Shown: one piece after another, positions 38,567 through 42,778 of the stretch
How positions within the stretch are numbered: position 1 is the first letter of the stretch
Layout of the letters: each line of letters begins with the position of its first letter
Assembly (NCBI RefSeq): GCF_001625445.1
Contig: NZ_LWHG01000004.1
Coordinates: 1-64,000 of the forward strand
Direction: 5' to 3'
DNA: 64,000 bases
Source: Haladaptatus sp. R4
Lineage (GTDB): Archaea; Halobacteriota; Halobacteria; Halobacteriales; Haladaptataceae
Notes under the pieces: generated by a model
Database searches by the model: none
The model's input: the letters and a program-made list of their open reading frames with translations, nothing else
Told to the model about the DNA's origin: nothing
Program-made: the position numbers and the translations under genes

Positions 38567-39559
38567 TTACCAGTCGAGCGACCCGCCGCTCTGATACTCG
38601 GTGACCTGCGTCTCGAAGAAGTTCTTCTCCTTGTTCAGGTCCACCTGCTCGGACATCCACGGGAACGGGTTGTCGGTGCCGTACTGCTCCGGGAGGTCCA
38701 ACTGTCCGAGTCTGCGGTCGGCGACGTGTTCGACGTACTCGGCGAACTGTTCCGCGCTCATGCCGAGGATTTCGTCGGGGCACGCCTCGTAGGCGTAGAT
38801 CTTCTCCAACTCGACGGCCTCGGTGATGAGCTCGGTCACCTCGTCGCCGAACTCGTCGGTCCACACGCCCGGGTTCTCGGTCCGAATCTCGTTGATGAGG
38901 TCCACGCCGAAGCCGACGTGAAGCGACTCGTCGCGCATGATGTACTCGAACTGCTGGCCGATGCCGACCATCTTGTTCTGGCGTTTCAGCCCGAGCATCA
39001 TGGCGAACCCGGCGTAGAAGAAGACGCCTTCCATGATGACATAGAAGCCGACCAGGTCGCGCAGGAATTCGCGGACGTCGTCTTCGGTGTCGATGGTGAA
39101 ATCCGGGCGGTTGATGGCCCGCGTCAGGTTCACCACGAACTCGTCTTTCTCCTCGATGGAGGGAACCCGCTCGTACATCCCGTACAGGTAGTCCGGGTCG
39201 AAGCCGAGCGAGTCACAGCAGTAGATGAACGTGTCCGTGTGAATCGCCTCCTCGTAGGCTTGTCGGAGGAGATACTGACGACACTCGGGCGCGGTCACGT
39301 ACTCGTACAGCGCGAGGACGATGTTGTTCGCGGTGAGCGATTCGGCCGTCGAGAAGAAGCCGAGGTTCCACTCCACGAGTTGGCGCTCGGCATCCGAGAG
39401 GGCGCTTCCGTTCCACTGGGAGATGTCGTCCTGCATGGGAATCTCCTCGGGAACCCAGTTGTTGTTGACGCCCGCTTGGTAGTAGTCGCGGGCCCAGTCG
39501 TAGTCCAGCGGGAGTATCCTGTTCGGGTCGTGTTCGGCGTCGTTGTTGATGAGTGGCAT
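38567..39559 (-). CDS. nrdB: ribonucleotide reductase small subunit, class Ic-like (R2c)
   Basis: A 330-residue four-helix-bundle ferritin-like protein. Metal ligands are Glu73, Glu104, His107, Glu177, Glu211 and His214. Two positions mark the class. The first ligand is Glu where E. coli R2 has Asp84. The residue four after His107 is Phe111, where class Ia has the radical Tyr122. Both match the Chlamydia R2c enzyme, which uses a Mn/Fe cofactor with no tyrosyl radical. It pairs with NrdA, 31 bp upstream, to make deoxynucleotides. The C-terminal tail (YQSGGSLDW) is the docking peptide for NrdA. Confidence 0.93.
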   Translation of the reverse strand: MPLINNDAEHDPNRILPLDYDWARDYYQAGVNNNWVPEEIPMQDDISQWNGSALSDAERQLVEWNLGFFSTAESLTANNIVLALYEYVTAPECRQYLLRQAYEEAIHTDTFIYCCDSLGFDPDYLYGMYERVPSIEEKDEFVVNLTRAINRPDFTIDTEDDVREFLRDLVGFYVIMEGVFFYAGFAMMLGLKRQNKMVGIGQQFEYIMRDESLHVGFGVDLINEIRTENPGVWTDEFGDEVTELITEAVELEKIYAYEACPDEILGMSAEQFAEYVEHVADRRLGQLDLPEQYGTDNPFPWMSEQVDLNKEKNFFETQVTEYQSGGSLDW

Positions 39560-39590
39560 GGATGGGTTGAAATGGTGATCGTGTGATCGA

Positions 39591-42038
39591 TTACTGACAG
39601 GCGTCGCACGTCGGGTCTTCGACGGTACAGAGGTCCTTCCCGTCCGCTTCGTCCGCCGGTCGTCCGCCGTCGGTCTCGGCCTCGTCGGCTCCGAACTCGT
39701 CCCGGTGCTGGCTCTTACCGTACTCGGCCATGTCGAGCGTCGACTTTTCGATTCCCGACGCGCCGAGCGTCCGCAGGTAGTAGGTCGTCTTCAGGCCCAA
39801 CCGCCACGCAGTCTTGTACACGTCGTCGAGGAGCGTACCGTCCGTGGACGGGAAGAAGACGTTGTGCGAGACCGATTGGTCGATCCACGTCTGCCGGTGG
39901 GCGGTCAGTTCCAGTTGGTGGCGCGGATCGATCTCGAACGCCCCGCGATACAGTTCCTTCAGGTCGTTCGGAACGGCGTCTATCTCCTGAATCGAACCGT
40001 CGTGATACTTGATTCGGTCCACCATCTCTTCGTCCCACTCGTCGATTTCTTGTAGGTCGTCAACGAGGTGGTCGTTGATGACGGTGAACTCGCCGGACAT
40101 GTTCGATTTCACGTAGAGGTTTGAGTACTGCGGTTCGATGGACGGCGTGGTTCCGTTGATGGTCGAAACCGTGGCCGTCGGCGCGATGGCCATCGTGTTC
40201 GAGTTGCGCATCCCGTGCTCCTCGACGTGTTCGCGGACGACGTACCAGTCGAGGGTCTCCTCGCGGTCGGTCGGAATCTCCCTCCCTCGTTCCGCTTCGA
40301 GCGAATCGACGGTGTCCTGCGGGAGCAGGCCGCGATCCCACTTCGAACCGTCGTAGGACGGATAGGGTTCTCGCTCGGCGGCGAGTTTCGAGGAGTTCAG
40401 GATGGCGTGGTAGGAAACGAACTCCTGCCAGCGGTTCGCGGCCTCGATACCCTCTTCGGAGTCCATCGGGATTCCGAGTTCCATCAGCGCGTCGTGGAAT
40501 CCCATCGTTCCGAGTCCGACCGGCCGGTGTCGCATGTTCGACTCCTCGGCCTCGTCGGTGGGGTAGAAACAGAGGTCAACGACGTTGTCCAACATCCGCA
40601 TGGCGGTTTCGATGGTGTCCGCGAGGTGGTCGCGATCGAGTTCATTTCCTTCGACGTGCGTAACGAAGTTCACGCTGCCGAGGTTGCAGACGGCGTGTTC
40701 GTCCTCGCTCGTGTTCAGCGTGATTTCGGTGCAGAGGTTCGAGGAGTGAACCGTCCCGACGTGGTCCTGCGGCGAGCGGACGTTACACGGGTCCTTGAAC
40801 GTCAACCACGGGTGGCCCGTCTCGAACAGGCGCGTGAGGGTTTTGCGCCACAGTTCCTTGGCATCGATGCGCTCGTACTGACGGAACTCGCCCTCGTCCG
40901 CCATCGCTTCGTACTCGCGATATTTCTCCTCGAAGGCGGCACCGGACAGGTCGTGGAGGTCCGGCACCTCGTCGGGGCTGAACAGCGTCCATTCCTCCCC
41001 CTGTTCGACGCGCTTCATGAACAGGTCCGGAATCCACGCCGCCGTGTTCATGTCCGGCGTGCGTCGGCGTTCGTCGCCCGTGTTCCGTTTCAGGTCGATG
41101 AAGGCGGGGAAGTCCAGATGCCAGCAGGCGAGGTACCCACAGGCCGCCCCGCGCCGCTTCCCGGAGCGGTTTATCACCGCCGTCACGTCGTTGCTGATGC
41201 GGAGGAACGGCACGACGCCGGTGGATTCCACGCCCGTCGATTCGATGAGCGCGCCGCCCGCGCGGAGGTTGGTCCAGTCGTTGCCGAGGCCGCCGCTCCA
41301 CTTCGAAAGCTGTGCGTGGCCTTTGTACGACTCGAAGATGTGTTCGAGGTCGTCCGAGACCGTCGTCAGGTAACACGACGACAGTTGCGGGTGGGTCGTC
41401 CCGCTGTGGAACAGCGTCGGTGTCGAGGGGGTGAACTCCAGTTTCGAGAGGACGTCGTAGAACTCCTCGGCCCGGCGCTGCGGTTCGTCCTCTTCGACAG
41501 CCAATCCCATCGCGACGCGCATCCAGAACGCCTGCGGCAGTTCGAGGTGCTCGCCGTTCTCCTCGGTTTTGAGGAAGTACCGCTGAATCAGCGTGTCCAT
41601 CGCCATGTGCTCGAACCGCTCGTCTCGGCTCAGTTCGAGGTAGTCGGCCAGCGATTCGAGGTCGAAGGTTTCGGTTAGTCGCGGGTCGAGACGGCCGATT
41701 TCGACGCCGTGTTCGAGGTTGTCGACGAACGTCGAGCGGTACTCCTTGTCCAGTTCGTACCCTTCCAAATCCTCGCCGATAACCTCGCGGTAGTACCGCT
41801 GGCGCGCCGCGGCCGCGGCGATTCTCTTGAACGTCGGGTCGCGTTCGACGCGCGCGGAGAGCGCGTCGACGACGGCTCGATACAGTTCGTCGGTGCTCGC
41901 GCCGTCGTAGGAGTTCCGCTCGATTTCGGTGACGATGTCGTCCCAGTCGTCCGCCGAAAGTATCGTTTCGTGGCCCGTTCGTGCTCGGTCCAGAATCGAC
42001 CGAGCGTCCGTCGTCGTCGCTGTTGATTGGTGGCTCAT
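39591..42038 (-). CDS. nrdA: ribonucleotide reductase large subunit
   Basis: An 815-residue class I catalytic subunit, intact in one frame. Active-site elements are SSCYLTTV (first redox Cys), NLCTEITLN (thiyl Cys with Glu) and AVCNLGSVNF (second redox Cys). The SGGLGND and PTATVSTINGTTPSIEPQ segments are typical. The C-terminal shuttle cysteines are in TCDAC after a long acidic linker. I see no KRDG-type ATP-cone at the N-terminus, so activity control by dATP at that site appears absent and control may rest on NrdR. Between nrdR (16 bp) and nrdB (31 bp). Confidence 0.95.
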   Translation of the reverse strand: MSHQSTATTTDARSILDRARTGHETILSADDWDDIVTEIERNSYDGASTDELYRAVVDALSARVERDPTFKRIAAAAARQRYYREVIGEDLEGYELDKEYRSTFVDNLEHGVEIGRLDPRLTETFDLESLADYLELSRDERFEHMAMDTLIQRYFLKTEENGEHLELPQAFWMRVAMGLAVEEDEPQRRAEEFYDVLSKLEFTPSTPTLFHSGTTHPQLSSCYLTTVSDDLEHIFESYKGHAQLSKWSGGLGNDWTNLRAGGALIESTGVESTGVVPFLRISNDVTAVINRSGKRRGAACGYLACWHLDFPAFIDLKRNTGDERRRTPDMNTAAWIPDLFMKRVEQGEEWTLFSPDEVPDLHDLSGAAFEEKYREYEAMADEGEFRQYERIDAKELWRKTLTRLFETGHPWLTFKDPCNVRSPQDHVGTVHSSNLCTEITLNTSEDEHAVCNLGSVNFVTHVEGNELDRDHLADTIETAMRMLDNVVDLCFYPTDEAEESNMRHRPVGLGTMGFHDALMELGIPMDSEEGIEAANRWQEFVSYHAILNSSKLAAEREPYPSYDGSKWDRGLLPQDTVDSLEAERGREIPTDREETLDWYVVREHVEEHGMRNSNTMAIAPTATVSTINGTTPSIEPQYSNLYVKSNMSGEFTVINDHLVDDLQEIDEWDEEMVDRIKYHDGSIQEIDAVPNDLKELYRGAFEIDPRHQLELTAHRQTWIDQSVSHNVFFPSTDGTLLDDVYKTAWRLGLKTTYYLRTLGASGIEKSTLDMAEYGKSQHRDEFGADEAETDGGRPADEADGKDLCTVEDPTCDACQ

Positions 42039-42054
42039 AAATCGTTAACTCGTT

Positions 42055-42539
42055 TTACTTGTCGGTCGGATGAGGAGGGTCGTCGTCCAGTTCCGCGTCG
42101 AGAACCGCGTCGAGTTCGCGGAGGAACTCCTCCGGTTCGGAGAACGCCTTGTACACGGAGACGAACCGGATGTACGCGACTTGGTCCAGTTCGCGCAGGC
42201 GCTCGGAGACGAGGTCACCGACGAGGCTGGACGAGACGATGCGCGTGTCCCGGTTCTGGAGGTCGGACTCCACTTCCTCGACCAGACTCGTCACGGATTC
42301 CTCGCTCACGTGGCGTTTTTCGACGGCTCGGTCGATCCCCGCACGGAGCTTCCGGCGGTTGTACGACTCGATGTTCCCGTCGCGTTTCTTCACCTGGAGG
42401 GAGTCCCATTCCGGACGCTCGTACGTCGTGAATCGAAACGAGCACCGTTGGCATCGCGCCGCCGTCGTACCGACGTTCCGTCGGCGCTCGTGGTGTCGAT
42501 GACTCGCGTCCGTTCGTTCCCGCAATCCGGGCAGTTCAT
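42055..42539 (-). CDS. nrdR: NrdR transcriptional repressor (frameshifted)
   Basis: About 160 residues. The zinc ribbon begins MNCPDCGNERTRVID at 42539 and resumes in the next frame as RCSFRFTTYERPEW; the break is near 42445. An ATP-cone domain follows (VKKRDGNIESYNRRKLRAGI). NrdR senses ATP/dATP and represses ribonucleotide reductase genes. Here it is the first gene of the nrdR-nrdA-nrdB cluster, so it probably represses its own operon. Confidence 0.92.
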
Positions 42540-42570
42540 GGTTGTCACTCCTTGTACCTCCTGTTGCTTA

Positions 42571-42616
42571 AACCCACATATGGGGTCTCGCTTCTTCCAA
42601 CCGCTATATGTGGTGT
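42571..42616. promoter_or_regulatory. pair of NrdR-box-like motifs upstream of nrdR
   Basis: Two related sites: 42571-42586 (AACCCACATATGGGGT, plus strand) and 42601-42616 (ACACCACATATAGCGG, minus strand). They match the bacterial NrdR-box consensus (acaCwAtATaTwGtgt) at about 10 and 12 of 16 positions, and their centres are 30 bp apart, about three helical turns, as in known paired boxes. A TTTAAG string on the minus strand at about 42565-42570 could be the TATA element of a leaderless nrdR transcript, so the boxes would sit directly upstream of it. Confidence 0.6.
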
Positions 42617-42778
42617 CCAGTCACTACGGCATAAACGTTTCCCAATCGAGTTTCAGTAATACAAATTTACTTGATTTGTGTCTGGCACGGCACTGCGTAC
42701 TCCGATGGACGGCCTTTCCACTACGAGTCCAAACCGACCAAAAAACGGTCCACCCGCCCGCTCGTAGTTACCGTCCGC

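Follow-up and report, generated by a model that had tools for sequence, protein, structure and literature searches.

Bacterial NrdR loaded with ATP and dATP binds two boxes as a tetramer, and in the S. coelicolor protein the DNA-contacting residues are D15, RRRR 26–29 and R37, with R17 contacting bases (PMC9110341). Spacers of 14–17 bp between the boxes were tolerated by four bacterial NrdRs in vitro (PMC12051234). NrdR has been described as rare in archaea (PMC9110341) and its boxes have so far been studied in bacteria; no description of archaeal NrdR boxes was found in the literature searched, a search that left the original NrdR regulon work outside its range. The haloarchaeal nrdR operon and its transfer to haloarchaea are already published, and the portion of that paper drawn on here concerns gene order and RNR phylogeny, not operators or the promoter (PMC3019208). 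Our analysis of a 64-kb stretch of DNA from Haladaptatus sp. R4 (the window) leads us to propose, with a probability of roughly 0.9 judged from sequence comparison, that two palindromes ahead of nrdR-nrdA-nrdB form the operator of NrdR on its own operon.

Organisation of the nrdR operon

On the minus strand of the window, nrdR (42055–42548) precedes nrdA (39591–42038), which encodes the 815-aa large subunit of a class I RNR, and nrdB (38569–39570, approximate bounds; PF00268 match at 38666–39520), which encodes the small subunit. The radical-tyrosine position in the nrdB product was placed with the pattern E-x-x-H-x-x-x-Y, which we take to mark it, and is occupied by Phe (sequence EAIHTDTF), making the protein class Ic-like. 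The comparison of this position also made use of published work (PMC3019208). NrdA matched only PF02867 and PF00317 in the Pfam search, with no ATP-cone detected, and the one ATP-cone found in the whole genome is that of NrdR. As carrier of the sole detectable ATP-cone, NrdR may therefore be alone in exerting dATP feedback on reductase supply through an ATP-cone, and if so its frameshift or loss would be physiologically interesting.

The nrdR gene gave two TIGR00244 matches in different frames, while intact relatives score above the cut-off of this family. Nucleotide alignment with four related loci (L002, L003, L004 and L006) placed a single missing base between 42453 and 42454, corresponding to the G of a GAG codon in the relatives; the ATP-cone was found in the window copy, the reading frame of which is not intact. 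Differences from L002 number 7, 8 and 46 by codon position, mostly third positions, a bias which implies that the frameshift is either very recent or a sequencing error. The remainder of the frameshifted gene still shows substitutions of the purifying type. Unless the missing base is such an error, the NrdR of the window may be broken, which, given a correct base call, would leave the operon unrepressed at present.

Putative NrdR boxes in the window

The sequence-only reading had reported two sites matching the bacterial NrdR consensus at 10–12 of 16 positions with their centres 30 bp apart, and recounting reproduced these figures: compared with the bacterial box acaCwAtATaTwGtgt, the plus-strand sequence AACCCACATATGGGGT at 42571–42586 agrees at 10/16 positions and CCGCTATATGTGGTGT at 42601–42616 at 12/16, and the axes are 30 bp apart, equivalent to a 14-bp spacer. 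Read on the minus strand, the putative TATA-proximal box 1 (42601–42616, axis 42608/42609) is ACACCACATATAGCGG and the putative box 2 (42571–42586) is ACCCCATATGTGGGTT. Both possess C4 and G13, nine bases apart, together with the A8/T9 of an AT core.

Single sites of at least 10/16 are frequent in the window (52, against 46 expected, which is ordinary) and would suit a chance resemblance; the rarity lies in the pairing. When a pair was defined as one site of at least 12/16 and a partner of at least 10/16 with axes 29–32 bp apart, 42571–42616 was the sole pair in the 64 kb, and no such pair occurred in 60 first-order Markov randomised windows. Chance, refuted by the conservation tests and at odds with both the pairing and the correlation with nrdR (see below), retains a negligible probability. 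A haloarchaeal box-pair model that includes close relatives of the window, when scanned over the whole 4.9-Mb genome, returned one site, that at nrdR (E = 3.2e-9); nrdJ, the class II RNR gene of the same genome, had no box pair (−11 bits).

Promoter architecture

The minus-strand order of elements is a double CAA..TTG palindrome, TATA, box 1, box 2, an SD-like AGGAGG and then GTG 42548/ATG 42539. The TATA element (GTTTATGC, 42629–42636, minus strand) is centred 24 bp upstream of the box 1 axis, the distance from the TTTA centre to this axis is 23–24 bp in 60/66 loci, and TATA is also retained in class I RNR operons that lack nrdR. Here the sequence-only reading has to be revised, as it had put the boxes upstream of the nrdR TATA: the conserved TATA is instead upstream of both boxes, which are located between it and the start codon, box 2 falling in the predicted 5' untranslated region. 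The element originally taken for TATA may be a weak TTTAAG at 42567–42572, which is poorly conserved among the loci. Archaeal transcription starts about 25–27 bp after TATA, and this spacing, combined with the 24-bp distance from TATA to box 1, predicts a start site inside box 1.

The start codon of nrdR is probably GTG 42546–42548, in frame with ATG 42537–42539, because the sequence AGTGACAACTATG is widely conserved. Across 42537–42562 (minus strand), the SD-like AGGAGG is followed by the in-frame GTG, three codons ahead of the ATG. A different layout, in which transcription from the proximal TTTAAG (42567–42572) yields a leaderless mRNA beginning at GTG 42548 and the NrdR boxes lie upstream of the promoter, would fit the GGTTAAG that follows box 2 in many loci and the commonness of leaderless mRNAs in haloarchaea. 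We consider it unlikely, since the proximal element is missing in many loci (e.g. L036, L038, L045 and L051) and its columns are weakly conserved, whereas the distal TTTAT shows near-maximal conservation, keeps a fixed distance to box 1 and is common to nrdR-less operons; moreover, an mRNA with a leader is suggested by the SD-like GGAGG located 8 nt ahead of the GTG.

Box 2, positioned in that predicted leader, is able to form a CCCCAnATnTGGGG hairpin, and the conserved sequence might accordingly be read as acting at the RNA level in the 5' leader (as a hairpin or riboswitch) and not as a protein site on DNA. This is highly improbable given that the predicted start site would cut box 1, that the three-turn helical spacing of the boxes is retained, that an Rfam search of the promoter gave no match and that presence of the sequence tracks nrdR.

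A second conserved element upstream of TATA (42641–42674, minus strand; CAA-N6-TTG-N8-(C/A)AA-N5-TTGG) is made up of a pair of CAA..TTG palindromes spaced at about 20 bp and is not a NrdR box. It was matched in 35/42 nrdR-containing and 24/27 nrdR-less class I RNR promoters, and its sole strong match in this genome is at 42641–42674. The element occurs with either class I operon type, with or without nrdR. CdrS was considered as its binder and set aside, RNR genes not being named among CdrS targets in the part of the source considered, and the Halobacterium UV motif TTTCACTTTCA bears no resemblance to the element.

Conservation of the box pair with nrdR

NCBIfam TIGR00244 identified nrdR in 64/391 Halobacteria genomes, and in 6/9 genomes of the genus of the window, its own genome counted; 70 nrdR loci, 42 of them non-redundant, were analysed. 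A scored pair was present in 66/70 loci, with the axes 29 or 30 bp apart in 63/66 and a spacing of 29 bp (13-bp spacer) in about half of the loci. Absence of the pair from close relatives had been named beforehand as the outcome that would speak against the sequence-only reading; the opposite was found, the paired-box motif being detected by leave-one-out scoring upstream of 37/42 non-redundant haloarchaeal nrdR genes, with scores mostly of 26–49 bits versus −12 ± 5.5 for shuffles (maximum 11.2), and five of the 42 loci falling below 15 bits when scored by the haloarchaeal model. The pair was also seen at loci of Haladaptatus litoreus, Halorubrum, Halomicrobium, Halovenus, Halorhabdus and others.

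The haloarchaeal consensus is aCACCAnATATTGCGG for box 1 and nCCCcAcATaTgGGgt for box 2. In the latter, C4, A8, T9 and G13 are invariant in the 24 seed pairs, for which C4, A/T at 8–9 and G13 (the C/G/AT core) were, together with a spacing of 29 or 30 bp, also the grounds of selection. Compared with the nearest sister locus (L002), box 1 has 0/16 changes and TATA 0/7, against 9/13 in the spacer before box 1. In whole-genome scans, a model site at E ≤ 0.01 was found in 35/40 nrdR-containing genomes, each adjoining nrdR (one strong site per nrdR), with no strong site away from nrdR in the nrdR-containing genomes scanned, and in 0/40 genomes without nrdR; because nrdR-containing loci went into building the genome model (R1), the genome scan alone is partly circular. 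Two equally scoring nrdR loci occur in each of two genomes, namely Haladaptatus pallidirubidus (G005; L006 and L008, ~550 kb apart) and G360 (108 kb apart).

In 13 aligned haloarchaeal NrdRs, C3, C6, C31 and C34 (zinc), D15, RRRR 26–29 and R37 are all invariant. Position 17 is R in some haloarchaeal NrdRs (L012, L030), but most have E, G or T there; R17 is known from the S. coelicolor protein and is not demanded by the TIGR00244 family model. NrdR residue 17 seemed to covary with box base 5, a signal that stems from one clade.

Class I RNR promoters without nrdR

Natural controls were provided by 29 nrdA promoters (27 non-redundant) of class I RNRs without nrdR. They mostly retain TATA and the upstream CAA..TTG element, and none of the 27 non-redundant promoters carried the box pair, the best score of 12.4 bits being at background level. 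The contrast between 37/42 nrdR-containing and 0/27 nrdR-less non-redundant promoters corresponds to a Fisher p of about 2e-14, and that between their scores to a Mann-Whitney p of 2.5e-12; by inspection, class Ia nrdB promoters without nrdR had no evident pair either. In a sister Haladaptatus (G001, locus L142), only about a dozen codons of nrdR are left after its deletion, the ATG and a cysteine codon being mutated, and the boxes beside this stub have decayed to 24 bits versus about 44 in the window, while a similar relic (first codons) stands ahead of nrdA at L095 (G127), where the boxes are decaying. The leaders of nrdR-less nrdA genes (L078–L117; e.g. L078, L079 and L115) often hold a AGTGGCAACGCTGTC-like sequence before nrdA, which resembles the nrdR start and is possibly a worn nrdR relic.

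These controls bear on whether another class I RNR regulator, rather than NrdR, binds the palindromes, as could be argued from a consensus match of just 10–12/16, the 13-bp spacers of half of the loci and the absence of R17 from most haloarchaeal NrdRs. Such a regulator seems very unlikely, because the sites track nrdR and not RNR type (class Ic and class Ia alike, and absent without nrdR on either), the boxes decay after nrdR deletion and nrdR-containing genomes hold no further strong site. For the NrdR-operator reading, which we continue to favour, the points counted on the debit side were the general lack of R17, the 13-bp spacers, the frameshift in the window and the 5/42 low scores.

Two reductase types and spread of the unit

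The pair is shared by both gene orders, being present in 37 of the 38 nrdR-nrdA loci (class Ic-like) and 29 of the 31 nrdR-nrdB loci (class Ia-like). Mapping the nrdA/nrdB labels onto the NrdR tree requires four changes, and well-supported branches force no fewer than three of them, from which we infer that the nrdR-promoter unit and the downstream reductase genes have recombined more than once. Pairs 31–33 bp apart also precede nrdR in Aenigmatarchaeota and one Micrarchaeum (loci L222, L223, L226 and L218), each outscoring all, or nearly all, of its 300 shuffles. By the bacterial consensus, no pair was seen at two Micrarchaeota nrdR loci (L213, L219). Several Chloroflexi nrdR promoters have pairs at 30 bp, and Chloroflexi NrdRs are among the nearest bacterial relatives (46–50% identity).

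On balance we lean towards a joint reading in which NrdR and its operator constitute a transferable dATP-sensing cassette functioning on archaeal TATA promoters, the haloarchaeal unit, with a shortened 29–30 bp operator, having been coupled repeatedly to two unrelated class I reductases, with recurrent nrdR deletion followed by operator decay and with a second regulator at the CAA..TTG element upstream of TATA.

Proposed mechanism

At high dATP, a tetramer of NrdR carrying both ATP and dATP would occupy the two boxes together and bend the DNA, the complex sitting on the predicted start site (box 1) and the early transcribed region, the 5' untranslated region (box 2), of its own operon. From there it would keep TBP, TFB and RNA polymerase off the promoter or prevent promoter escape, so that reductase and NrdR would be shut off alike; once dATP levels drop, the complex would come apart and allow expression of the operon. 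NrdR binding, its dependence on ATP/dATP and repression on an archaeal promoter are all predictions drawn from the DNA. That nrdR represses itself, as originally proposed, is implied by the pair at the nrdR-nrdA-nrdB promoter and is, at this predictive level, strongly supported. The accompanying suggestion of a bacterial-type NrdR operator pair on an archaeal promoter is likewise strongly supported, the pair being conserved with nrdR and missing without it. The sequence-only reading as a whole is upheld in part, since the boxes lie downstream of the conserved TATA and nrdR is frameshifted in this genome.

A conserved operator at archaeal promoters would illustrate a way in which a repressor of bacterial type can be made to work with the TBP/TFB machinery, and the intact, box-less and decaying promoters that exist in nature, some within one genus, offer a ready test system.

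Comparison with known systems

The operons are those described as haloarchaeal nrdR-nrdA-nrdB and nrdR-nrdB-nrdA by Lundin et al. 2010 (PMC3019208). In Aenigmatarchaeota and Micrarchaeum, as in haloarchaea, the box pair lies between a TATA-like element and the nrdR start codon, although these lineages differ in RNR class (nrdR-nrdD-nrdG in Aenigmatarchaeota and nrdR with another RNR gene in Micrarchaeum, the RNR genes being named by eye), in their 31–33 bp spacing and in the distance to TATA.

Unlike the bacterial pairs, the haloarchaeal boxes are placed on a TATA-type promoter, where box 1 covers the predicted +1, their axes are 29–30 bp apart where bacteria usually have 31–32, their outer bases are richer in G+C (CCCC..GGGG in box 2) and strong sites are found at nrdR only; most haloarchaeal NrdRs also lack the R17 of S. 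coelicolor NrdR. The 14-bp spacer of the window is within the bacterial range and the 13-bp spacer of many relatives just outside it, so that haloarchaeal NrdRs are predicted to prefer a shorter spacing. Notwithstanding these differences, the haloarchaeal pairs resemble those of S. coelicolor nrdRJ and E. coli nrdHIEF in their palindromic 16-bp boxes, where a conserved C and G flank an AT core at a distance of nine bases from each other, in the separation of the two boxes by about three helical turns and in their place over the promoter and start region of an RNR operon (PMC9110341, PMC12051234), and, as in S. coelicolor nrdRJ, nrdR itself is inside the operon.
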